Source of the DNA: Candidatus Thalassarchaeaceae archaeon
GTDB lineage: Archaea > Thermoplasmatota > Poseidoniia > Poseidoniales > Thalassarchaeaceae
NCBI GenBank assembly: GCA_030745885.1
Contig: JASLNR010000035.1
Span: forward strand, 1-10,438
Direction: 5' to 3'
Length of the DNA stretch: 10,438 nt
The position numbers and the translations under genes are program-made. Shown piece by piece: positions 1-10,438 of the stretch. Within the stretch, counting starts at the first letter, position 1, and every line of letters starts with the position of its first letter. The notes beneath the pieces are model-generated. The model saw only the letters and a list, made by a program, of their open reading frames with translations. It did no database searches and was not told the origin of the DNA.

Positions 1-426
1 GTGGGATACTGCACCCTGTACGGGGACATGAACGGGGGTTACGCGCCACTAGGAGACCTCTACAAGACTCAGGTTTACGAGTTGGCGGAAGCGATAAATG
101 AAGATGCCAAGTCCTCGGGCAGACTCCTACCCATTACCGCATCAACGATAGCCAAGCCGCCCTCAGCAGAGCTCTCGCCCGACCAAGTTGACCAAGACAC
201 GCTTCCCCCATACGACATACTCGATGAGATTCTGAGGGCCCTCATAGAGGATGGTGCCTCGCCTGAAAGAGTCGTTTCGGCAGGTCATGATCAATCCACG
301 GTTTCATGGGTGGACGAGCACCTCGAAGCGAGCGAGCACAAGCGCTGGCAGATGCCTCCGGCTCCACGAGTGAGCGAGAGGGCTTTCGGGCAGGGCTGGC
401 GTCAGCCACTGGCTGTCAAGAGGTAG
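1..426 (+). CDS. nadE: NAD+ synthetase, C-terminal part (5' end outside window)
   Basis: NAD+ synthetase makes NAD+ from deamido-NAD+ (NaAD), ATP and ammonia or glutamine in the cytoplasm. The 141 visible residues match the C-terminal end of the synthetase domain. Near the left edge is GYCTLYGDMNGG, followed by the GDLYKTQVYELA helix. The substrate-binding loop KPPSAEL-SPDQ-DQD-LPPYD lies at about residues 52-72. The tail has HKRWQMPP and RAFGQGWRQP at residues 112-136. This kind of tail is familiar from long, glutamine-dependent (glutaminase-fused) NadE proteins, but the N-terminal half is not visible, so the nitrogen donor is inference. The GTG at base 1 is almost certainly an internal Val codon, because the fold would be cut in half if translation began there. 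The stop is TAG at 424-426. A 50-residue membrane protein gene starts 8 bases later. Confidence 0.93.
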   Translation: MGYCTLYGDMNGGYAPLGDLYKTQVYELAEAINEDAKSSGRLLPITASTIAKPPSAELSPDQVDQDTLPPYDILDEILRALIEDGASPERVVSAGHDQSTVSWVDEHLEASEHKRWQMPPAPRVSERAFGQGWRQPLAVKR

Positions 427-434
427 GTTATCAC

Positions 435-587
435 ATGGACGAGGATGCCGGCCCGCCCGAGCACTACAGAAAGAAGCGGGACCTCTACAGTGGAATGTTG
501 CTACAGTCGTTGTACTGGGCCCTTAGGAGTGCAATTGTGGTTGTGGTGGTGCTTGGTCTCCTAGCCATGTTCAGCCCCCTGCTTTGA
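435..587 (+). CDS. Small single-helix membrane protein (50 aa)
   Basis: No family is recognised. The 50-residue product has a short acidic/basic N-terminal part (DEDAGPPEHYRKKRD) and then one hydrophobic helix at about residues 26-49 (WALRSAIVVVVVLGLLAMF). Basic residues precede the helix, which suggests an N-in, C-out tail-anchored topology. The same frame is open further upstream, but that stretch overlaps nadE out of frame and reads as a shadow. ATG at 435 is preferred because it follows the nadE stop by 8 bases and has a GAGGT-like ribosome binding site at about 420-424, inside the end of nadE. It is probably co-transcribed with nadE. The gene ends 9 bases short of the stop of the convergent gene on the other strand. 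Confidence 0.6.
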   Translation: MDEDAGPPEHYRKKRDLYSGMLLQSLYWALRSAIVVVVVLGLLAMFSPLL

Positions 588-596
588 TACTCCCCC

Positions 597-1493
597 TCAT
601 TTCCTCTTGTCTTCGACTTTCTTCTTGTATGCCGCTGTAGAATCCGCTTCGGTCCACCCATCCAAGAAGAGCCCCCCGCCCTTGTGGACGCCACCCCTCA
701 CGTTCCCTTTCCGAGGTTTCCTGTCTTGATTGCGAGACAATAGGTGGCGGCTAAAGGACTTGGGGAGGCCATCCGCACCCCGTTCAGACTGGGAGAGTGA
801 GTATGCCCTCCATTCGGCTTTGGGTCCTGACTTCTTCACGGTGATAGGGTCCCCGTCATCCCCCATAGTCAAACCAAGAACAGCGCCCAAGGCCAATAGT
901 AGCAGTGAGCAGAACATGGAAGTATGGCCCGTTCTGAACCCCCCAATAATCATCTCAATCAGACCTGAGAGGAAGGGGTCAGGTTCCTCCTCGTGCTCCT
1001 CGACGAGTCTGACGAAATCGTCTGCCTCCAAGCTGTAGTTCCCCCTGCTGCACTGCGATTCTGACTCATTGACGGGATGATGGCAGATCTGCCCTACATA
1101 GACCATGGACTGATCGACTAGTTCGGCCCTCTCGAATCCTAACTCGCACAGTGGATTGAAGGTGTTGTTTGTGTGGCTGAAGTTGGAGGGCTTCTCTGCA
1201 CCTTCCGACCATACCAGCAATGTGAGATTCTGGCACGAGTCCCACATCCCGTTCCCGTCGAGATCGACGTAATCGCCGAAGACGTAGGCCGCCCAACCAA
1301 GATTTTCGGTGCCCAATGAGTCATCGAAGAACAAAGTCCCGTTGACTCCGCTAAATGCAAATGTGGGGGATGAATCATCCGAATCACTGGATTCGCCGAT
1401 AGGCAACTCAGTTCCAGTGATGATGACCAAGACACTAACAAATAACACGACCGTGCCGATTGCCGCAGTCAGGTTCGCTATCGGATGCACCAC
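597..1493 (-). CDS. Two-helix membrane protein with sequon-rich ectodomain, unknown function
   Basis: The function is not recognised. The 298-residue protein has a membrane helix at about 10-28 and a second at about 192-209. Between them is an acidic ectodomain with four Cys (87, 116, 137, 148), enough for two disulfides, and a calcium-loop-like DLDGNGMWD at 77-85 (Asp77, Asp79, Asn81, Asp85). It also has six N-x-S/T sequons (Asn51, 89, 104, 109, 142, 152), consistent with archaeal N-glycosylation. After helix 2 comes a basic, low-complexity cytoplasmic tail of about 85 residues ending in a Lys/Arg-rich stretch. The start is GTG at 1493. An in-frame TAG lies three codons upstream, so it cannot be much longer. 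The GTG one codon later (1490) is better spaced (5 bases) from the GGGAG at 1496-1500 and is an equally good start. It is likely the last gene of a minus-strand run with its two upstream neighbours. Confidence 0.75.
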   Translation of the reverse strand: MVHPIANLTAAIGTVVLFVSVLVIITGTELPIGESSDSDDSSPTFAFSGVNGTLFFDDSLGTENLGWAAYVFGDYVDLDGNGMWDSCQNLTLLVWSEGAEKPSNFSHTNNTFNPLCELGFERAELVDQSMVYVGQICHHPVNESESQCSRGNYSLEADDFVRLVEEHEEEPDPFLSGLIEMIIGGFRTGHTSMFCSLLLLALGAVLGLTMGDDGDPITVKKSGPKAEWRAYSLSQSERGADGLPKSFSRHLLSRNQDRKPRKGNVRGGVHKGGGLFLDGWTEADSTAAYKKKVEDKRK

Positions 1494-1560
1494 GACTCCC
1501 TATCAGCCGCACGGGGTCTATGCTCAAGGGCATTACGTTGGGAGGCTATCCTTCGGCCCC

Positions 1561-2013
1561 CTACTGGAAGGCGATTGCGTAAGCCGCTACCAACATCACC
1601 AGAATCCACAGCTTCGCCATTCGTTTGCGTCGTCGCGGCGAGTTGCCTGAGAGCGTGACCCTGAACAGAGTTAGAGTCGAGACCATTCCAAAACCAAAGG
1701 TAACCACAAGTGCGTTCGAACCCATTGCCCAATGGAATCCTTCGTCGGTCGCGGAGGATGTCGAGCTGCCTTCCTCATCCAGTGGGCCTCCCTCGCCAGC
1801 ACCGTCCTCGACAGCGTTCACCCCTAGGAAGAGCAGGGCTAGGGCGACCAAGCTAGTTACCTGCCCGATTAGCAAGAAGGAGGAGGAGGCATCTCCCCGC
1901 CCCCCACGCCACTTGTGAATCGGGGCTCGTTTGGATTTGGTACGTTCGTCCCCTTTCTTTCGATAGGAGGAGTCGTCGCGGTTAGACCAGCGTGACCTTG
2001 GGGACGTCCCCAT
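1561..2013 (-). CDS. Three-helix membrane protein, unknown function
   Basis: No family is recognised. The 150-residue product starts with a strongly basic, polar segment of about 42 residues rich in Arg, Lys and Ser. Helices follow at about 44-66, 97-118 and 133-149. The loop between helices 1 and 2 (67-96) is acidic and Gly/Ser-rich. The loop between helices 2 and 3 holds the basic cluster RRRKR at 127-131. By the positive-inside rule this gives N-in, acidic loop outside, C-terminus outside. ATG at 2013 is the only good start near the N-terminus. There is no clear Shine-Dalgarno sequence, but an AATTAAG element lies about 25 bases upstream, which would suit a leaderless transcript. The gene lies 67 bases upstream of the two-helix protein gene and 58 bases downstream of the PH-domain gene, all on the same strand. 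Confidence 0.65.
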   Translation of the reverse strand: MGTSPRSRWSNRDDSSYRKKGDERTKSKRAPIHKWRGGRGDASSSFLLIGQVTSLVALALLFLGVNAVEDGAGEGGPLDEEGSSTSSATDEGFHWAMGSNALVVTFGFGMVSTLTLFRVTLSGNSPRRRKRMAKLWILVMLVAAYAIAFQ

Positions 2014-2071
2014 GGACTGGAAAGTAAGACTGTGCTTAATTGGCTTGCGCGTGGTGGCTTCAGAGGTATTC

Positions 2072-2605
2072 TCACTCTTCGGATGAGGTTCCCTCGATTC
2101 GCCTTAGGATATCCCTGATCTCGACCAGCACGTTCTCGGAGGATGAGGTTTGGGTTTGCATTGAGGTCGCTTCGACGCCCTTGTGCGCGATTCCATCACG
2201 CTGCCTGAGGACGAGGTCACGGAAGCCGAGGGCGTCGGAGACTCCGGTTAGCGAGGCGCTTCCGCCACCACCACTGCCTCCTGCGGTCTCGATTGTTAGG
2301 TGGCAGAGGCCCATAGCGCTGAGAATCGGGCCCTCGATTACAGCCATGTCGGTGATCTTGTCGAGAGGGATGTTCTGCTGCTTCTTGAACAGCCATCCCT
2401 TGCGGACGTTTAGGGAGCGGTCCGTCAGGTCCATCCCGAGGTTCTCGTACTGTTTCTTATGGACAAAGTACCCGATAATAACCCACACGGGAATCAATAA
2501 GACTCCGACCATAGTGACTAGAAGCATGAAATTGGCCATCAACCACCAGTAGATAATCAGCCTCCTGTCGAACTGTGCAGAAGCGAGCATCCTGTGCTCA
2601 CCCAT
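2072..2605 (-). CDS. Membrane-anchored bacterial PH-domain protein (bPH2/YdbS-like)
   Basis: The 177-residue protein has an N-terminal hydrophobic region at about 18-48 (WWLMANFMLLV and PVWVIIGYFV), probably a hairpin of two helices or one long helix. A PH-like domain of the bPH2/DUF304 (YdbS-like) type follows. The diagnostic run is at 55-108: LGMDLTDRSLNVRKGW, then NIPLDKITDMAVIEGP, then the MGLCHLTIETAG strand. A Gly/Ser loop (109-116) precedes GVSDALGFRDLVLRQRD. The C-terminal 25 residues look like a charged amphipathic helix. The precise role of this family is unsettled; in other organisms members are membrane-associated and often paired. ATG at 2605 has an in-frame TAA two codons upstream, so the start can only be here or at Met6. 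The gene is divergent from the three-helix gene starting at 2640, with 34 bases between them. Confidence 0.85.
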   Translation of the reverse strand: MGEHRMLASAQFDRRLIIYWWLMANFMLLVTMVGVLLIPVWVIIGYFVHKKQYENLGMDLTDRSLNVRKGWLFKKQQNIPLDKITDMAVIEGPILSAMGLCHLTIETAGGSGGGGSASLTGVSDALGFRDLVLRQRDGIAHKGVEATSMQTQTSSSENVLVEIRDILRRIEGTSSEE

Positions 2606-2639
2606 AGTTTACCGGCTATTCCCAACTACTTGAGGATGA

Positions 2640-3017
2640 TTGGAGTGGGAGAACATACTCAAGTCCCGGCACCCACGGACAATCGTGGATTACGTAGGGA
2701 TGTTGCAGACGGCTTCCCTGAGCCTTTGCAGCCTCGCTGTGGTTCTCTGGATGTCCATAGGGACACTCTCGCGCACGACCGAGCGCGAGACGCTGGCCCA
2801 GCGTACCATCGCTGCCATGTGCCTCGCATCTGCTGTGTTGCTATTCGCTCTACACCACGCTGGCGGGGAGCTCTGGGGTTCGAGGAACGTCGCTAGACTC
2901 TTCGCTGTCGTCGCGGTAATCGTGGCTCTCGCCTCGATGATGAACATCAAGGGCAAGGACGTCCAAGGGGAGTCGAATCCCCATTCAATCATGAGGAGCC
3001 GTCGAGAGGAGGAATGA
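2640..3017 (+). CDS. Small three-helix membrane protein, unknown function
   Basis: No family is recognised. The 125-residue product has hydrophobic segments at about 19-42 (VGMLQTASLSLCSLAVVLW), 57-72 (IAAMCLASAVLLFALH) and 85-101 (ARLFAVVAVIVALASMM). Its hydrophilic C-terminal tail is rich in Arg and Glu. The start is uncertain. TTG at 2640 has a GAGG four bases upstream (2632-2635). GTG at 2685 and ATG at 2700 are in-frame alternatives that would shorten the N-terminus by 15-20 residues without losing the first helix. An ATG at 2636 belongs to a different frame. The gene is divergent from the PH-domain gene, and its stop lies 2 bases from the stop of the convergent NifU-like gene. Confidence 0.6.
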   Translation: MEWENILKSRHPRTIVDYVGMLQTASLSLCSLAVVLWMSIGTLSRTTERETLAQRTIAAMCLASAVLLFALHHAGGELWGSRNVARLFAVVAVIVALASMMNIKGKDVQGESNPHSIMRSRREEE

Positions 3018-3019
3018 GG

Positions 3020-3295
3020 CTACCCCGCGTTCAACTTGTCATCGATGAAGGAGCGCATGTAAGCCGGAAGCTCCCCGTTAACGAATACGACGTCCTCGAC
3101 CTCATCCAGCATCATCAATGAGTAGTAGATCTGCATCGCAGTCATCGGGGTGGCGCTGCAGCCCGTACAGCCGCCCTCGAGGGAGATCATGACCACCCCG
3201 TCGGCAGTGTCTACTACGTTGACTACCCCGTCATGAGCATCCAATACCACTTGGACGGGCCCCACCGAGTCCAGGATTAGTTGCTTATCGACCAC
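3020..3295 (-). CDS. NifU-like (Nfu-type) Fe-S scaffold/carrier protein
   Basis: The protein is 91 residues, the size of a stand-alone NifU C-terminal domain. Such proteins carry or assemble Fe-S clusters and pass them to apo-proteins in the cytoplasm. The family signature is plain: a Gly/Asp/Val strand pair (DAHDGVVNVVDTADGVVMISLEGG), then the cluster-ligating CTGC (Cys43, Cys46), then an amphipathic helix and the VEDVVFV strand. The first part corresponds to the usual 'GGDV.lVdv..g.V.v.l.G.C.gC' pattern. The GTG start at 3295 is supported by a GGTGA ribosome binding site 4 bases upstream (3300-3304 on the complement). The gene is transcribed away from the glutamine amidotransferase gene across a 62-base shared control region. 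It could equally be called a NifU domain-containing protein, since the physiological target is unknown. Confidence 0.9.
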   Translation of the reverse strand: MVDKQLILDSVGPVQVVLDAHDGVVNVVDTADGVVMISLEGGCTGCSATPMTAMQIYYSLMMLDEVEDVVFVNGELPAYMRSFIDDKLNAG

Positions 3296-3299
3296 AGGG

Positions 3300-3304
3300 T
3301 CACC
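3300..3304 (-). promoter_or_regulatory. Ribosome binding site GGTGA of the NifU-like gene
   Basis: On the minus strand the bases read GGTGA, with 4 bases to the GTG start at 3295. This matches the archaeal anti-Shine-Dalgarno complement and fixes a GTG start. Confidence 0.6.
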
Positions 3305-3310
3305 TTCGCA

Positions 3311-3324
3311 CCGCTCTTGAGCGG
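3311..3324. promoter_or_regulatory. Perfect dyad CCGCTC-TT-GAGCGG, candidate operator
   Basis: A perfect 6-base inverted repeat with a 2-base centre lies in the 62-base region between the divergent NifU-like and amidotransferase genes. The 2-base spacer is too short for a stable RNA hairpin loop but fits a dimeric regulator binding DNA. It lies between the shared TATA-like element and the NifU-like start, about where that gene's transcript would begin, a typical place for repression. No regulator gene is visible, so the function is inference. Confidence 0.35.
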
Positions 3325-3329
3325 GGGGC

Positions 3330-3338
3330 TTTCAAACA
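3330..3338. promoter_or_regulatory. TATA-like element shared by divergent promoters
   Basis: TTTCAAA (TTTGAAA on the other strand) is the most AT-rich block in the divergent region. It lies about 25 bases before the amidotransferase ATG at 3358, suiting leaderless initiation. It lies about 38 bases before the NifU-like GTG, which leaves a short leader carrying GGTGA. The match to an archaeal TATA box is weak, so confidence is low. Confidence 0.3.
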
Positions 3339-3357
3339 CTTGCCCTCTCGGAGCGTC

Positions 3358-4257
3358 ATGGGAGCCGGAACCCGGGTTCTTCTCATCGACCTGCTGGTCG
3401 AGCGCTCGGAATTCGGGCATGGGGGGAATCAGGAGATTGTGCGCCCCATTGCTGACTCGGGGAGTGTTGAGGTGCTGCTGGTGACTCCGCAGATGCAGTC
3501 CGAGGAAGCGGGTCGGCGTGCCCAGGAGGCTGGCGAGGTCGCTATCACAGAGGAGGATGTCCCCCACTGGGACGATGACTTCGGATTCTGGGCCGAATGC
3601 GTAGTCGAAATGGGCGGCAACAGGGTCACGTTCAGACGAATAGCCATGCCCCTGCACGGCGAAGATTCACCGACTGCAGAGTGGTTGGGCAGTATTGCAC
3701 CCGATGCGGTCATCTGCTCCGGGTCACGTCGAAACGTCTCGATCTGGGAAGACTGGATGGATTGCGGCGCCGCCTTATTGAGATCCGCTATCTCAATAGG
3801 AATTCCCACTCTGGGAATCTGCTTCGGCCACCAACTCCTCTGCAAGGCGCTTGGGGCAACCGTAGAAAGGGCCGACTCGCTATCCAACGGTGTCTGGGAT
3901 CTGGATCTGACTGAAGAGGGCGATTCAGACGAGCTCTTCGCCTCGAGGCGGTCGGGTGGGGAGGGCTCACCAGTCGTCCTCTTCACACACAGAGACCATG
4001 TGATGTCGGTGCCTGAGTGTTGCACTCTGCTAGGTAGCACGGAACACAATGGCGTCACAGCCGTGAGAGTCAACAGCGAAGATGGCGTCTCTTTGCCGGC
4101 TTGGGGCGTCCAGTTCCATCCCGAGGCTGCCAAGGCTCGTATAGAGCGCGCCTTCGAGTGGGGACACATCACTCGCGAGGAGCTTGTGTCGTTCCAGCGA
4201 GAACATGACGGAGCTGGCATTCTCGAATCCTTCGCGGCTGTGATCACGGGCCACTAA
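3358..4257 (+). CDS. Stand-alone class I glutamine amidotransferase-like protein
   Basis: Class I glutamine amidotransferases hydrolyse glutamine and release ammonia for a partner reaction. Counting from ATG at 3358 (299 residues), the nucleophile elbow is GICFGHQ at 153-159 (Cys155). The His and Glu of the triad are in GVQFHPEA (His254, Glu256). SGSRRN at 121-126 sits where the oxyanion loop is expected. The triad is therefore intact. No synthetase or acceptor domain follows, so it resembles the GMP-synthase-amidotransferase-like stand-alone family, whose partners and substrates are mostly unknown; it is not assigned as guaA. Between the first strand (RVLLID, 6-11) and the next recognisable core strand (VTFRRIAM, 90-97) is an acidic insertion of about 75 residues. 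TTG at 3340 would add six residues, but ATG 3358 fits the TATA-like element better. No clear ribosome binding site is present. Confidence 0.85.
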   Translation: MGAGTRVLLIDLLVERSEFGHGGNQEIVRPIADSGSVEVLLVTPQMQSEEAGRRAQEAGEVAITEEDVPHWDDDFGFWAECVVEMGGNRVTFRRIAMPLHGEDSPTAEWLGSIAPDAVICSGSRRNVSIWEDWMDCGAALLRSAISIGIPTLGICFGHQLLCKALGATVERADSLSNGVWDLDLTEEGDSDELFASRRSGGEGSPVVLFTHRDHVMSVPECCTLLGSTEHNGVTAVRVNSEDGVSLPAWGVQFHPEAAKARIERAFEWGHITREELVSFQREHDGAGILESFAAVITGH

Positions 4258-4293
4258 GTGATTACCCGAAACCTCCGAAAATGGTGGATTTGG

Positions 4294-4302
4294 ATTAAAT
4301 AC
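4294..4302 (+). promoter_or_regulatory. TATA-like box of the pyrophosphatase gene
   Basis: ATTAAATAC is a good archaeal TATA-box match in an otherwise GC-rich 80-base intergenic region. A purine-rich CCGAAAATGG lies upstream. Initiation 22-27 bases downstream would start the RNA near 4320-4325 and leave a short leader that contains the ribosome binding site. Confidence 0.5.
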
Positions 4303-4327
4303 GTAACTCGGGTCGCCGGGGCGACGC

Positions 4328-4335
4328 AGGTGAGG
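4328..4335 (+). promoter_or_regulatory. Strong ribosome binding site of the pyrophosphatase gene
   Basis: AGGTGAGG lies just before ATG 4338. Its GGTGA core has 4 bases to the start codon. It is the best Shine-Dalgarno sequence in the window and fixes the start. Confidence 0.65.
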
Positions 4336-4337
4336 AC

Positions 4338-6392
4338 ATGATTGAGAACATACCGGAAATCGCAGCTGCAACTGCAGTCCTAGGACTTGCAATCGCTGTG
4401 CTGCTCTACACTCAGATAGAGAAATTGAAGATTGACAATCCCACTGTAGCTGACATCACCCAGCAGATCAGGGACGGGGCGATGGCATTCTTGTTCGCTG
4501 AATACCGATACCTAGCCGTCTTCATCGTTGTCGTAGCAGGGTTGCTCTTCTTGAACCCCGATACGGGCAATCAGACCGTGCTCGCCTTCCTGGCTGGCGC
4601 TGCCGCTTCCGTGGCAGCTGGCTTCAGCGGGATGCGAGCAGCCACAAGCGCCAACGGCCGCACGGCCATGGCTGCAGCATCGGGCGGGCAGCCAGCCGCC
4701 CTAGAGGTCTCCTACAACGGAGGCGCGGTGATGGGTCTCTCGGTCGGTGGCCTCGGGCTGCTTGGCATCTCGTTGATGGCCATGTGGCTTGGAACCGGCC
4801 CCGAGGTTCAGAACATCGCTGGATTCGGCATGGGGGCCTCCTCTATCGCGCTGTTCGCCCGCGTGGGCGGTGGCATCTACACCAAGGCCGCTGACGTCGG
4901 CGCCGACCTCGTCGGCAAGGTCGAGGCGGGGATCCCTGAGGACGACCCGCGCAACCCCGGCGTCATCGCCGACAACGTGGGTGACAACGTTGGGGACGTC
5001 GCTGGGATGGGCGCCGACATCTTCGAGTCCTTCGTAGGCTCAATCATCGCTGCCATGGTTATCGCCGAGGCCTCGGGGATGCACTCCGATTACATCACCC
5101 TCCCGATCTTCCTCGGGCTAGTGGGATACGCCGCTTCGATCGTCGGCGTATTCAGCATGAAGGTGTTCAAGGGGGGCGATGCCGCTGCGGCACTGCGAAA
5201 CACGACTTTCATCGGCGCAGCCCTCTTTTGGGCCGCCGGCTGGTTCGGCATAGGCTACCTGGAGCTTGAGACAGGCACAGACCCAATGCAGGCAGTGATT
5301 GCCGGCTCGATCGTCGGGATCCTCATCGGTCTCGTGACCGAGTTCTACACCGGGATAGAGCCCGTCTTCGGGATTCCCGTGAAGGCCATTCCCCACATCG
5401 GAAAGATGTCCAAGACTGGCCCTGCCACCAACGCCATCGCAGGCCTCTCGGTTGGCATGATGTCCACTTTCATACCGATTCTCCTCATCGCGGGCGGCAT
5501 CTTCGTTGCCAACGAAGTGATGGATGACGGAAGTGCTATGGCCGCTGATCTGGGACTCTATGGAATCGCCATGGCCGCGATGGGGATGCTCGCGACCGTG
5601 GGAGTCACCATGACCGTAGACGCCTATGGGCCAGTCGCCGACAACGCGGGCGGCATCTCCGAGATGAGCGAGCTAGGCCCTGATGTCAGAGAGATTACAG
5701 ACAGCCTCGACAGCATCGGCAACACCACTGCTGCCATCGGCAAGGGCTTCGCGATAGGCAGCGCAGCGCTCACCGCGCTCGCGCTCTTCGCCGCCTTCGG
5801 CACCGCGGCCCAACTCGAGGCCTCGGACCTAACCCTCACAGACCCGATGGTCGTCGTTGGGCTACTAATCGGTGGCTCGCTGCCATTCGTGGTCGCTGCC
5901 ATGACCATGACCTCGGTCGGGAAGGCAGCCGGTGACATGGTGATCGAGATCCGTCGGCAGTTTCGGGAGATTGAGGGCCTGCTAGAAGGCAGGGAAGGGG
6001 TCAAGCCCGATTCCATGACCTGCATAGACATCTCCACACAGGCTGCCCTGCGCGAGATGGTGATGCCCGGATTGACTGCGGTCTCGGCTCCCGTGGTCGT
6101 CGGATACGCCCTCGGTCCTGCCGCCCTCGGCGGCCTGTTGGCGGGCGCGCTGGTGACGGGTGTGCTGATGGCCCTCTTCATGGCCAACGCTGGCGGTGCG
6201 TGGGACAACGCGAAGAAGGCCATCGAGCAAGGGCACATCGAAGGCGCTGCGAAGGGGGACCCCTCTCACGACGCCGCTGTCATTGGCGACACCATAGGGG
6301 ACCCGTTCAAGGACACTAGCGGGCCATCGCTGAACATCCTGATCAAGCTGATGTCGATCGTCTCGGTCGTCATCGCACCCGGACTTATCTGA
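4338..6392 (+). CDS. hppA: Membrane-bound ion-pumping pyrophosphatase, K+-dependent type
   Basis: This polytopic membrane enzyme hydrolyses cytoplasmic pyrophosphate and pumps H+ and/or Na+ outward. The 684-residue length is normal for the family, and about 16 hydrophobic helices can be traced. Catalytic motifs are all present: DVGADLVGK at 186-194 with Glu196, [19 protein letters not shown] at 202-220, [12 protein letters not shown] at 428-439, and [15 protein letters not shown] at 650-664. The [10 protein letters not shown] stretch at 461-470 has Ala465 and Gly468, where K+-independent enzymes have Lys and Thr, so it belongs to the K+-dependent group. Glu230 lies three residues after Asp227 in helix 6, as in many bacterial and Na+-pumping enzymes and unlike the plant-type arrangement. 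Whether it pumps Na+ or H+ cannot be settled here. It has its own TATA-like box and GGTGA site. A lipoprotein gene starts 49 bases after it. Codon use is GC-rich, with ATC and GTC favoured. Confidence 0.97.
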
Positions 6393-6414
6393 GTACTCCG
6401 AGTAGCGTCAGACT

Positions 6415-6424
6415 CTTGGCCAAG
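6415..6424. repeat. 10-base palindrome between hppA and the lipoprotein gene
   Basis: CTTGGCCAAG is a perfect palindrome within the 49-base gap after hppA, 17 bases before the lipoprotein ATG. A 10-base palindrome can occur by chance; it is listed only as a possible regulatory or stem site. Confidence 0.15.
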
Positions 6425-6441
6425 GCTGAGGACGGGGTATC

Positions 6442-7392
6442 ATGCGCTCAGCCCGGGCACTGGCCCTCGCGATGCTCGTGCTCGTAGCGAGCATGGCCGG
6501 CTGCGCGGGCTCGGATGGCGAGGTCGATTCGGATTCCATCAACGTCCCGACCTGGCAGATTGGGGACTGGTGGCTCTACACGTTCTCGACCCCCGACTAC
6601 AGCGACGACACGGCTAGGCTCGTCGTGGCGAGCGATGGCGAGGAGAGCGGCACTGCCTACATGTTGGCTATCTCGAGCTTGGCTGAGGCCAGGCGGCACG
6701 CTGTGCTCAACCACAACCCATTCCTCGGAAGGGTCACGCACTCTGGCCTGAGTGCCTTCGAGAACGGGGTGGCCCAGCCAGTGCTGTCGTTCCCGATCGA
6801 GAAGGGGGGGTCATGGGGCTTCACACTGTTCTCTACTGAGTGGACTGCATCGGTGACAGGGGTCACGGGCGGAACGGCCATTATTGCGGGTGCCGCGTCT
6901 GACGGCTCGAGGTTGGACTACGTGTACGACAGCGGGATCGGCTACTTCTCCTCCTTCATATGGGCGGATGCCTCGGGAACGGAGCAACTCAGGATGATGG
7001 TGGCCGATCAGGGTTCTGGGCATATCGGGGACGTCTACTTCGTCAGGGGGGGTGACCTGTTCAGCGAAATCTGGGAGGACCCTGGCACAGACTTGGAGTT
7101 CCGTGACACATTCCTCGTCAGCGACCACCCCAGCGACGGCGAGTGGGACGAGATGGTCTATTTCATCGACGCAGAGTGCGGCAGCGGCTCTTCCAGCATC
7201 ACACTGACTCTGCGGGATCACCTATCTGCATCCGCTCTGGAGCGGATTTGGGGGCCCGGGGCAAGCGAGACGGGGACTTTGGGCACGATTCCATACCCCT
7301 CGGGGGAGTACACCCTGACAGCGACCTTCACCGGCACCGCGTTCCTGCGGGTCATAATCGCGGGCGGCATCACCGAGTCGTGGAGCCTCTAG
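6442..7392 (+). CDS. Predicted lipoprotein, unknown function
   Basis: The 316-residue product has a signal peptide with Arg2 and Arg5, a hydrophobic core (LALAMLVLVAS) and a lipobox SMAGC, so Cys21 is the probable lipidation site. The mature protein starts with a Gly/Asp/Ser-rich acidic spacer. It then has WQIGDWWLYTF at 39-48, a pattern often seen at the start of archaeal extracellular beta-rich domains. The rest alternates Gly/Thr/Ser-rich beta strands with few charged helices, ending in a possible second beta domain at about 240-316. It has no catalytic motif that I recognise, and its binding partner is unknown. ATG at 6442 follows GAGGACGGGG (6428-6437), and the signal peptide confirms the start. 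It may be co-transcribed with hppA. Its TAG stop (7390-7392) overlaps the TAG of the convergent glutaredoxin-like gene in a shared CTAG. Confidence 0.8.
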   Translation: MRSARALALAMLVLVASMAGCAGSDGEVDSDSINVPTWQIGDWWLYTFSTPDYSDDTARLVVASDGEESGTAYMLAISSLAEARRHAVLNHNPFLGRVTHSGLSAFENGVAQPVLSFPIEKGGSWGFTLFSTEWTASVTGVTGGTAIIAGAASDGSRLDYVYDSGIGYFSSFIWADASGTEQLRMMVADQGSGHIGDVYFVRGGDLFSEIWEDPGTDLEFRDTFLVSDHPSDGEWDEMVYFIDAECGSGSSSITLTLRDHLSASALERIWGPGASETGTLGTIPYPSGEYTLTATFTGTAFLRVIIAGGITESWSL

Positions 7393-7661
7393 AGGTAATC
7401 GATAAGGTTGTCCGAGCCTCCCACGAACACCGGCTCTTCGCCCCTCAAGTCGAACACTACCGGAACCGTTCGGTGTCCCGTCTGACTGACCACCGCTTGC
7501 CTGAGCCCATCGTGATGATCGAGGTTGACATCGGTGAAGCTCAGTTCTTTGGATTCGAGGACCCTGAAGGCGAATGAGCAGAAGGGGCAGATGGTCTGGG
7601 TGAAGACCAAGAAGTCGGTCTCAGTCCCTATAATTATCTCACGAAACTGCGACAGGCTCAC
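7389..7661 (-). CDS. Glutaredoxin-like thiol-disulfide oxidoreductase
   Basis: Counting from GTG at 7661 (90 residues), the thioredoxin fold is complete. The first strand is DFLVFTQT at 16-23. The redox active site is CPFC (Cys25, Cys28). A helix and strand (LSFTDVNLD) follow, then the cis-proline TVP (Pro68), the VFV strand and GGSDNL at 81-86, which in glutaredoxins contacts glutathione or another thiol cofactor. The natural thiol partner in this organism is unknown. An upstream ATG at 7730 would add 23 residues overlapping the preceding gene by 92 bases; those residues do not look like part of the fold. GTG 7661 overlaps the preceding gene by only 23 bases and has a GGGGG-containing stretch just upstream. 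The tight overlap suggests co-transcription with the protease-transporter gene. Confidence 0.85.
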   Translation of the reverse strand: MSLSQFREIIIGTETDFLVFTQTICPFCSFAFRVLESKELSFTDVNLDHHDGLRQAVVSQTGHRTVPVVFDLRGEEPVFVGGSDNLIDYL

Positions 7662-10438
7662 CGCCCCCTTCTTGGTCAGACCACCATCCAGACTCGCCCA
7701 AATCGTCCGGAAGGACAGCGTCCACGGCATCCTTCTCCTCGAGCACTCTATTGCACTCTTCCGGGTCGATGAAGATTAGGAAGAAGACTGTGAACATTGT
7801 GAGTGCTGCCCCCACGTATATCGTGGTGCTGTAATTGTTGTCAAAAATCTGCAGCATCCTGCCAGTGAAGGTGTATGCCATCACTCCTGAGAGGTTGAAC
7901 ATTGACATGTATGCGGTGAATTGTGTCCCTCCGACCTTGCTCCATGTCATCTTCATGCAGACAGCAATCACACATATCCAAGCAACTCCGTTTACTAGGC
8001 CTCGAATAATCAGATAGGCCGTCATAACCACTGTGTTGGTCCAGAATGGTTCCAGTACCGCCAGCATAGCATTGCACACCGCAAGGCTTGTGAAGCCGAT
8101 CATTGCCACCCTTCTGACCCCGAACTTATCTCCCAGCATACCCCCTGCAATCTGGCCGGTCATGACTGCAAGGATGACGATACCGCCAACGATGACGTTG
8201 TAATCCTCCTGTTCCCATCCTGCCCGATTGATGAATATATCAATCACGATTGGGTCTATGAAAAGGTACAGTTCGGACAGAAGGCACAGGAAAATAAGCA
8301 TGAAAGAGGATCTTAGGTGGAATGCCTTGGTAAGATTGAAACTTGTCTGAGCAAGAGTCCTGCGGGGTCCTTGGGGCAACATCGAGAATGGGTTAAAGAC
8401 TCGAGGTATTGAGACCGTCCTAGCGATTAAGGCAGTGATAATGGCTAGAACGATCCCGTAGAATGCGATCGACTTTGCTGTCCCGTATAGTGGAACGGTC
8501 AGGTCAACTGAAATTATCGCAAATAACAGCCCAGCAACAAAGATGGTTAGGGATACAATAGTCAGCAGGGCTGCGAGTGAGATTCTTTCGTCGAATGTTG
8601 ACCTACCCACCGCCCGAGCCGCCCACCATCTGGATTCTTCTGGCTCCTCCCAGTATAGCCTCTCATCCACTTCAAATTCAGATACCCCGTAAGAATCCGT
8701 GGATTCAGGATATAGTGATTCTTGATTGGATGGTCTTGACCATGGGAATAGGCGGGTGCCGGGTTTCTCGTACAGGAACATTGGAAGAATCATGATCAGA
8801 AGCAGGATGGGGAGTTGTATGGAGAGCATCCCCTTGATGCCGATCGTCTTGGCGAATCCGCCAAGGACCGCGCCACCGACAATCATCCCGCCTCGCTTGG
8901 ACGCGAACATGTACCCGTTTGCCTTCGAGACCTCGTCATCCCGAAGAACGTCCACTGCGAGGGCGTCGGTGCTGACGTCCTGCAGGGAAGCGAAGATGTT
9001 GTGCACGAACATTAGCTTGATCACTAGGTCGATCTGCCCCGTCAAGTCCGGGACAAAAAGGAGAGTCCCAATTGTGACGGCCATTCCAAACTGGGCGAAT
9101 AATATCCACAGCCTACGGGAACCGAATTGGGGTAGGCTCAACGTGTCGATGACGGGCCCCCATATCCACTTGAAGGTCCAAGGCAAGGCGACGGTTGCGA
9201 ATAACAAACCAATCTCTTGGGGGGTAAACCCGTTGTCCGAGAGATATGATGCGAAGGCGACAGTCGCGAACCCCCATGGGAGGCCTTGGGCGAAGTAAAG
9301 GACACACAACGAGACCATCCTTCTGAGTCTGTTCTCAGTCAGGCTCTGTCCGTCGAACCACTCCTCAACAAGTTGTTCTCTGTTGTAGAGCACGTATGCT
9401 AACAGGGGCAGTAAGATTAGCGACAGCCCGATAATCAGAATTCTCGAGCTGCTCGAACCGGTTGCTTCTGCCGGTGCTACCATATCCAGAAGGATGACCC
9501 TGCGGGCATCCACTGGGGATATGTGGTCGTCATCGACAATCAGACGGGCGTAGATGGTCGTGTTTCCAGACTCGTTGTGCGGGTCCAGCTTGATCCCCCA
9601 CTGGGCCCAGTCGCCCAACGGGGAGGAGTCTTCCGCCGCCCTCCACTGGCTACCACCGACGCGGACCTGAACCTCGCCCTGACCGGGGGCCGCGCCCGAG
9701 GCGGTGCCCGATAGGTAGCTCTGGTTGAGCACCTCGTCCATCGAGTTAATGTCCATCGAGACGTTCAGGGAGCGGTCAATGCTTCCTGCGGCCTCAACGA
9801 AGGCGACGGGGTCGGCCTGGCCGTAACCGAACTCGTTGTCTGGTCTCGTCTCCAGCAGGCTGCAGTCATTGAGTCCCGCGTCTCCGAAGAGGGAGACCTC
9901 ACGCTCGATCGACTTGTCGGACACGATGGCCTTCAACTCGGAAGGAGTGAGGTCTGGGTTGGCTTGAATCATCAGGGCGGCAATGCCGGCCATCAGGGGG
10001 GTTGCCATGCTGGTGCCGGACTTGCTGGTATAGCCGTCCTGGGTGGCAGCGTCGGGGGCCATAATGCTGGAGCCGATGGTGGCGACGTCCGGTTTGACGC
10101 GGAGGTCCGAGGTGTACCCGCGGCTGCTGTAGATGGCGAGGCTGAGGTCCTTGTCGAGGCTCGCCACCGTAATCGGCAGGCGCGCATCGCCGGGGCTGTC
10201 TATGGTATTGCAGCCGACTAAGGTAGCGCCTCCGAACTCGTTGCCAGCAGAGAGGGTAGTGATGATGCCGGCCTCGACCACCATGTCCATCTGTCGGCTC
10301 CAGGCGGAGTTTCCGTCATTGTCGACGTGGATCTCGAACTGCTGCTCACCCAGAGACGAGGTAACGATGTCAATGCCGTACTTGTCCCTGTTGTCTATGG
10401 CCCACTGGGCGCCCTCTATGACGTCCTCTATGTCGCCG
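7639..10438 (-). CDS. Subtilisin-family (S8) protease fused to AmpG/PAT-type MFS transporter (5' end outside window)
   Basis: The frame is open to the right edge; about 932 residues are visible (numbered from the edge). Residues 1-220 are the C-terminal two-thirds of an S8 protease: DVIEGAQWAIDN helix and TSSLG strand, oxyanion Asn66 in SAGN, and the catalytic Ser143 in GTSMATP. The Asp and His of the triad must lie beyond the window. A beta domain (about 220-320, with SGTASG and VQVRVGGSQW) and a membrane helix (about 332-352) follow. After a cytoplasmic linker (YNREQLVEEWFDGQ..RLRR), residues 374-891 form a polytopic transporter. It has the AmpG-like signature LYFAQGLPWG, then LPWTFKWIWGPVID and LQDVSTDALAVD. 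PAT-family members move muropeptides or acetyl-CoA; the substrate here is unknown. The tail is acidic. Met374 (base 9318) is a possible internal start, but it has no well-spaced ribosome binding site. The transporter half is markedly AT-richer than the protease half. Confidence 0.85.
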   Translation of the reverse strand, partial: GDIEDVIEGAQWAIDNRDKYGIDIVTSSLGEQQFEIHVDNDGNSAWSRQMDMVVEAGIITTLSAGNEFGGATLVGCNTIDSPGDARLPITVASLDKDLSLAIYSSRGYTSDLRVKPDVATIGSSIMAPDAATQDGYTSKSGTSMATPLMAGIAALMIQANPDLTPSELKAIVSDKSIEREVSLFGDAGLNDCSLLETRPDNEFGYGQADPVAFVEAAGSIDRSLNVSMDINSMDEVLNQSYLSGTASGAAPGQGEVQVRVGGSQWRAAEDSSPLGDWAQWGIKLDPHNESGNTTIYARLIVDDDHISPVDARRVILLDMVAPAEATGSSSSRILIIGLSLILLPLLAYVLYNREQLVEEWFDGQSLTENRLRRMVSLCVLYFAQGLPWGFATVAFASYLSDNGFTPQEIGLLFATVALPWTFKWIWGPVIDTLSLPQFGSRRLWILFAQFGMAVTIGTLLFVPDLTGQIDLVIKLMFVHNIFASLQDVSTDALAVDVLRDDEVSKANGYMFASKRGGMIVGGAVLGGFAKTIGIKGMLSIQLPILLLIMILPMFLYEKPGTRLFPWSRPSNQESLYPESTDSYGVSEFEVDERLYWEEPEESRWWAARAVGRSTFDERISLAALLTIVSLTIFVAGLLFAIISVDLTVPLYGTAKSIAFYGIVLAIITALIARTVSIPRVFNPFSMLPQGPRRTLAQTSFNLTKAFHLRSSFMLIFLCLLSELYLFIDPIVIDIFINRAGWEQEDYNVIVGGIVILAVMTGQIAGGMLGDKFGVRRVAMIGFTSLAVCNAMLAVLEPFWTNTVVMTAYLIIRGLVNGVAWICVIAVCMKMTWSKVGGTQFTAYMSMFNLSGVMAYTFTGRMLQIFDNNYSTTIYVGAALTMFTVFFLIFIDPEECNRVLEEKDAVDAVLPDDLGESGWWSDQEGGGEPVAVS

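Follow-up and report, generated by a model that had tools for sequence, protein, structure and literature searches.

AmpG, an anhydromuropeptide permease that we take to belong to the PAT family, is not known to have an ectodomain, and archaea lack murein that they themselves could recycle. Nor is any S8-like ectodomain known on SLC33A1 (acetyl-CoA transporter 1). Here we describe a stretch of 10,438 nucleotides from a Candidatus Thalassarchaeaceae archaeon (GenBank assembly GCA_030745885.1, contig JASLNR010000035.1, positions 1 to 10,438 of the forward strand), referred to at its full length as the window, which carries a gene that joins an S8 subtilase in frame to a permease resembling both of these proteins. 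Relatives of this gene reveal that the transporter is a platform with exchangeable ectodomains, a larger finding than the single fusion. The best explanation overall, to which we assign a probability of about 0.45, is that a tethered peptidase feeds an importer.

The nearest kin of the window protein come from Marine Group II, which according to a passage of PMC6461757 exceed all other planktonic archaea in abundance in surface waters of the ocean. Other passages describe S8 and M28 peptidases of Marine Group II genomes as extracellular (PMC6864105, PMC6336850), and these may include the fusion genes described here; passages also report highly transcribed subtilase and pyrophosphatase genes with a proteolytic life in Marine Group II and deep-sea archaea (PMC6864105, PMC9723583, PMC6461757, PMC6336850, PMC4660358). 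Marine Group II is thought to live on protein, but the way in which digestion outside the cell is linked to uptake is not established. Term searches of passages on the peptidases of these archaea returned no mention of a protease-transporter union. Some surveys, as a passage of PMC6336850 indicates, restrict themselves to peptidases with a predicted extracellular location or signal peptide, and may drop this multi-helix fusion protein. Automatic naming at JGI already gives 'subtilisin family serine protease/MFS family permease'; our literature search found no paper on the fusion, although databases label it automatically.

Results

Structure of the fusion gene

The fusion gene encodes, in the order of translation, an S8 subtilase, a beta domain, an anchor helix and an AmpG-like MFS permease (Table 1), that is, a secreted-type domain, an anchor helix and an AmpG-like permease in one frame, the arrangement that characterizes the family. 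When the window frame was compared with Pfam, Peptidase_S8 matched residues 4-206 at 1.3e-29 (model positions 97-288 of 288), and both MFS_1 (1.7e-28, from residue 377) and Acatn (6.4e-9) matched within the same 932 residues. The original prediction, which was made from the window's letters, had described a single frame with GTSMATP, the oxyanion Asn, a beta domain, an anchor helix and RLRR, followed by an AmpG/PAT-type transporter; these elements are all present as claimed, on the minus strand, and the domain order and transporter identity were upheld by Pfam, by comparison with the PDB and by fold search. The further claim that both halves are complete at the joint held for the sequence adjoining the joint, but the window edge cuts the protease and leaves the catalytic Asp and His and the N-terminal region outside, so that Asp and His can be read in relatives only.

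Conservation of the fusion in two orders

Protein P0002, which is 92% identical to the window protein over residues 300-932, is unbroken in L001 (metagenome-assembled genome SP208), the nearest full-length relative among the loci fetched, with 1250 amino acids; L003, from a Candidatus Thalassarchaeaceae archaeon, is also close to the window gene. The alignment of the window with L001 covers all 932 residues at equal length, with no insertion or deletion in the anchor or linker, and dN/dS, calculated by the NG86 method for this one sequence pair, rose from 0.034 in the S8 part through 0.088 in the permease and 0.136 in the beta domain to 0.238 in the anchor and linker. Purifying selection acts on both halves of the fusion. 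In a protein database search, as had been suggested, the 54 best relatives (P0002-P0055, among 120 listed of 510) all have S8 and MFS domains and are 1,223-1,330 amino acids long.

The distribution of the fusion was surveyed in 292 genomes, sampled from a larger set, of the order of genome G001 (putatively Poseidoniales); the S8 search scored five candidates per genome, and the assemblies may be incomplete. The permease half was matched in 191 genomes at 1e-10 and the S8 half in 88 at 1e-110, and the two lay in the same open frame in 69. Permeases of 876-907 amino acids, the length of the form with a beta ectodomain, were found in 20 genomes, and the seven that were read (L056, L090, L091, L092, L094, L098 and L099) were confirmed to carry this ectodomain. 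S8 was found in a frame of 663-726 amino acids in 13 genomes, and leftover strong matches, in six genomes for S8 and seven for the permease with partial overlap, are fragments or unclear. None of the 69 fusion genomes also held a free-length S8 or a permease of beta-ectodomain length. In a second order, that of G360, the fusion was matched end to end in 11 of 21 genomes, in frames of 1,168-1,206 amino acids; two of these fusions that were read (L160 and L161) are 52-53% identical to P0002 in S8 and 34% in the permease. Three other genomes of this order (G295, G400 and G402) have their S8 match in frames of 625-772 amino acids, apparently separate from the permease, and P0280, a relative of the second-order permease (72% identity), carries the source name Marine Group III.

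Because the fusion occurs in many independent assemblies from two orders, and is under purifying selection across the joint, it is genuine, and chance or misassembly is excluded; an artefact of assembly or annotation accordingly receives practically no weight, in agreement with the earlier argument that this is not a random join. The original prediction had also named close relatives with the two domains in separate genes, with a stop between them, as a finding that would refute it. This is borne out in part: of the 88 genomes in which an S8 orthologue was matched, 13 have separate genes, but there is no stop at the joint, and in the genomes that were read the free S8 gene is sited elsewhere.

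Two observations concern the assemblies. The fusion in L034 is clearly of the Marine Group II type, and its contig is assigned to a Neomarinimicrobiota genome, probably through a binning error. L024/L027 and L031/L076 are pairs of identical or near-identical fusion copies from one genome on different contigs, arising from duplicate assembly or true duplication.

The protease half

The best solved relatives of the S8 half are the subtilases 9ues (E 9e-38) and 3afg (1e-37), and PF00082 matches the full-length L001 protein at 4.5e-45. Ser and the oxyanion Asn are seen in the window and Asp and His in relatives, and strict motifs for all four residues are kept in 46 of the 50 distinct fused genes; among the remaining four, L003 is cut by the contig end before Asp, and L036, L038 and L041 have an altered letter beside a retained His. 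Judged from these motifs, the protease of the fusion looks active. By eye, full-length relatives seem to begin with a signal sequence, after which comes a region resembling a propeptide. In the genomes that were read, free S8 orthologues have a simple anchor of their own at another site, and the transporter there bears a different ectodomain. One free S8 frame (L050:7799-9580, in G004) has 593 amino acids, fewer than its kin, with a TAG within the match, which may reflect a disrupted gene or a fault in the assembly.

Many newly made subtilases carry a propeptide and reach their mature form through self-cleavage. This, together with the existence of free S8 orthologues, would be compatible with a regulatory protease that matures itself, is shed from the permease or cuts other surface proteins nearby, such that the mature cell contains two separate proteins. 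We consider such a role improbable, since the window and L001 share a conserved anchor and linker (dN/dS 0.24, no indel), and since the Met that precedes the window permease is not conserved among relatives, which leaves no evident start site for a separate permease.

The permease half

By sequence, the closest solved structures to the permease half were AmpG (9c3f, E 4.1e-11) and then SLC33A1. When the predicted model was submitted to Foldseek, ranks 1-4 were all AmpG (best 9j9z, E 7.8e-12), with 16-18% identity in the fold alignments. The model contains one anchor helix and 12 core helices, six in residues 370-553 and six in 709-889 (counted by eye, with 709-738 as one), as well as an extra helix pair between the permease halves. 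The predicted local distance difference test (pLDDT) score, taken by blocks, was mostly 70-90 in the permease and low in the loop 573-591 and in the tail; the protease portion of the model, being truncated, was unusable. The M28-type permease of L085 is shorter (426 amino acids) and by its length seems to be without the extra pair. By sequence and predicted fold, the permease half is an AmpG/PAT-type MFS protein. Import and proton coupling would follow from analogy with the family. The proposed topology, in which the protease faces outside, the anchor crosses the membrane once and the transporter begins in the cytoplasm, is consistent with the model.

Exchangeable ectodomains on one transporter

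In all, 159 loci were fetched, 79 from the best 80 of 92 matches and 80 from further searches. After removal of identical proteins, and with ectodomain-free paralogues outside the counted set, 140 distinct permease genes were read; one was cut by a contig end, and the other 139 carried one of six types of ectodomain. These were S8 (50 genes), LP87, a small domain with no Pfam match (33), the beta (jelly-roll) domains ECTOb (21) and ECTOa (14), which are about 30% alike, M28 (11), and a plastocyanin-like domain (10). The statement that every gene carries an ectodomain is valid for two close permease branches only.

Pfam confirmed the M28 domain (PF04389, 5e-16 to 4e-19, three genes) and the copper domain (PF00127, 9e-14, P0193), and among 120 listed of 1128 database rows, M28 was found with MFS in 56 (P0122-P0177) and PF00127 with MFS in 44; the copper forms P0306 and P0313 are assigned to Poseidoniaceae by their source names. 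All five ligand-region motifs of M28 fit a strict pattern in 6 of the 11 genes, and the other five genes depart at 1-3 motifs. The departures in L081, L112 and L137 involve a neighbouring residue or unread letters, with no ligand loss seen, and L104 and L105 each fail one ligand-region motif. M28 is also joined to a different, more diverged MFS-like half in P0202, P0212, P0217 and P0231 (883-908 amino acids); the membrane half of P0212, and that of P0202, which is named Thalassarchaeaceae, gives only a weak Acatn match in Pfam. The copper-ligand pattern is found in 8 of the 10 cupredoxin genes (L101, L106, L111, L113, L120-L122, L127, L132 and L135), L111 having unread letters and L121 a changed residue before His. 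Candidate roles for the plastocyanin-like domain on the permease are copper handling or electron transfer beside the carrier.

The chromosomal slot

A gene for a 316-amino-acid lipoprotein-like protein lies at most 3.5 kb from the permease gene in 42 of the 44 S8 forms, in all 19 ECTOb forms and in 7 of the 9 M28 forms, and in none of the 48 LP87, cupredoxin and ECTOa forms, among genes whose 3' flank spans 1.5 kb or more (19 genes with shorter flanks were set aside, and one cut gene was uncounted). These counts indicate that one chromosomal position holds an S8, beta or M28 ectodomain, and that the other forms sit elsewhere. The window itself represents this slot, with the glutaredoxin, lipoprotein and pyrophosphatase genes beside the fusion (Table 1); a NifU-like gene was also found in the window by Pfam. 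In the genome of L047 and L056, where the permease carries ECTOb, an S8 orthologue that is 72% identical lies about 12 kb off on the opposite strand, where it forms a tandem with a further subtilase.

Two features of these loci were recorded separately. L047:5878-9934 contains two diverged subtilases in tandem, of 667 and 673 amino acids and about 33-34% alike, each of which has a hydrophobic stretch near its end. The pyrophosphatase frame at L056:9024-11423 has unread letters between repeated residues, from an assembly gap or withheld bases.

Table 1. Features of the window, with the basis on which each was assigned.
Feature	Coordinates	Strand	Basis and remarks
S8 subtilase-AmpG-like permease fusion gene	7639..10437	minus	Single open frame; 932 amino acids in window, 5' end beyond it
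S8 catalytic domain, C-terminal two thirds	9820..10428	minus	PF00082, residues 4-206
Oxyanion Asn (N66 in SAGN)	10240..10242	minus	Invariant across 52 aligned rows
GTSMATP with catalytic Ser143	9997..10017	minus	Invariant across 52 aligned rows
Beta domain after catalytic domain, residues 210-320	9478..9810	minus	Strands in predicted model
Anchor helix, residues 329-351	9385..9453	minus	Helix in predicted model, and sequence
Linker up to RLRR, putatively cytoplasmic	9331..9384	minus	Sequence
AmpG-like MFS permease, residues 370-900	7738..9330	minus	PF07690/PF13000; AmpG best in PDB by sequence and fold
Extra helix pair between two six-helix halves, residues 621-672	8422..8577	minus	Predicted model
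Glutaredoxin-like gene, conserved neighbour	7389..7730	minus	PF00462 and synteny; open reading frame from first start codon overlaps fusion end
Lipoprotein-like gene, 316 amino acids, slot marker	6442..7392	plus	Synteny, no Pfam match; travels with permease slot
Membrane pyrophosphatase, conserved neighbour	4338..6392	plus	PF03030 and synteny
Class-I glutamine amidotransferase-like gene, frequent neighbour	3340..4257	plus	PF00117 and synteny

Separate histories of the two halves

A careful tree of 57 permeases was rooted on the ectodomain-free paralogues and scored with eight labels, L160/L161 and the paralogues having labels of their own. In this tree, L160 and L161 joined the S8/ECTOb branch (100/98), ECTOb was nested there twice, and 11 changes of ectodomain label were needed, compared with a minimum of 7. 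Three long rows and two long-branch joins were flagged, and because one of the joins is at the outgroup, the root is unsure. A quick tree of 139 permease rows needed 12 label changes, compared with a minimum of 6. In the S8 tree, also made by a quick method, the free S8 genes formed two separate groups within the fused ones. The trees of the two halves, compared over 49 proteins, disagree: a permease clade of 13 was rejected in the S8 tree (p 5e-5) and a second, with 9 members, less strongly (p 0.026), these p values being indicative only, because the clades were picked from the permease tree after the S8 tree had been seen. The simplest reading of these sequences is that S8 halves were swapped between lineages by recombination inside the gene.

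Halves with separate histories, as though freely re-paired, would fit a permease that is merely a membrane anchor or fusion hot spot, whose N-terminal helix tolerates any secreted domain with no functional link to transport. The exchange of unrelated ectodomains (peptidases, cupredoxin and beta domains) fits this explanation as well, as do the S8 orthologues with their own simple anchor. However, all 139 classifiable genes of the two close branches bear an ectodomain, although distant ectodomain-free paralogues exist, and two peptidase families are found on this permease and one of them also on another MFS protein, a pattern that random capture does not best predict. We therefore regard an anchoring role alone as unlikely, while granting it real weight.

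Discussion

In the explanation that we favor, a tethered peptidase feeding an importer, the S8 endopeptidase would face outward, held by one helix to an AmpG-type MFS importer, and would cut proteins or peptides at the cell surface. The importer, powered by a cation gradient, would take in what the peptidase releases, and a peptidase positioned close above its mouth would raise the local product concentration, so that products could be captured before diffusing off. Such coupling is favored because two unrelated peptidase families are found on the same importer, and M28 on a second MFS-like half as well. A passage of PMC6461757 describes the lineage as proteolytic and without amino acid biosynthesis genes, which we count in favor of this explanation.

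Several findings weigh against it, chiefly the ectodomains that are not peptidases. The kin of the permease carry other cargo (anhydromuropeptides for AmpG, and acetyl-CoA or glutathione for SLC33A1, according to PDB titles), so peptide transport is not implied by the family. The ectodomains of 78 of the 139 classified genes are not known peptidases (33 LP87, 35 beta ECTO and 10 cupredoxin), and so the transporter is kept without a peptidase; about 20 paralogues of approximately 410-490 amino acids, 37-43% identical to the M28-type permease, have no ectodomain at all (four were read, L162-L165). Thirteen genomes retain the S8 half without the transporter, and of the 20 genomes whose permease has the length of the beta-ectodomain form, 9 lack an S8 orthologue at E 1e-110, with the caveat that assemblies may be incomplete. 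The cupredoxin, beta and LP87 forms disfavor a purely proteolytic role, and favor the broader idea that the ectodomains bind or prepare cargo.

With AmpG and SLC33A1 as the best solved relatives, and with cupredoxin and jelly-roll ectodomains that look like binding rather than digesting modules, the permease might carry a substrate other than peptides, such as a muropeptide-like or nucleotide-like compound or a metal complex, which each ectodomain would prepare or bind, the peptidases trimming peptide stems or carriers. S8 and M28 enzymes, however, as a rule act on ordinary L-peptides, and we think another substrate rather unlikely.

The capture of protease products by a tethered importer, as the original prediction had it, thus gains from the presence of M28, an unrelated peptidase, on the same transporter, and is weakened by copper-binding and apparently non-catalytic domains joined to that transporter too. 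Support for that interpretation is partial, and it should be extended from a single protein to a family of ectodomain-swapped permeases. The conserved platform transporter bears varied modules, predicted to face outward (S8, M28, cupredoxin, jelly-roll domains and the small LP87 domain), and we tentatively suggest, as a possibility that we hold with some doubt, that it forms a modular uptake machine in Marine Group II and III, in which an exchangeable tool determines what the cell harvests and lineages change diet by a swap of tools, partly through recombination at one locus, while the importer is kept.

If a tethered peptidase does feed the importer, these ocean archaea, abundant and uncultured, would combine digestion and uptake in a single molecule, and the single chain would be a private-goods solution, in which the product goes to the cell that bears the cost of the enzyme. 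Split and swapped forms that occur in nature are ready controls for testing whether the fusion matters.

Among known systems, AmpG (9j9z, 8zgz and 9c3f) is the closest solved relative of the permease half in both sequence and fold, and SLC33A1, the second group in the PDB, has the same Pfam signature (PF13000) and is a human protein with a different cargo. The archaeal-type subtilases 9ues and 3afg differ from the fusion in being chains of 427 and 539 residues with no transporter joined. Peptidase-containing ABC transporters also have a peptidase (C39) and a transporter in one polypeptide with a shared substrate path. Pfam found no match to a C39 peptidase with an ABC ATPase in the window at E 0.001. 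The C39 systems are ATP-driven exporters in which a cytosolic cysteine peptidase trims leaders, whereas the fusion would combine an extracellular serine or zinc peptidase with an MFS permease.

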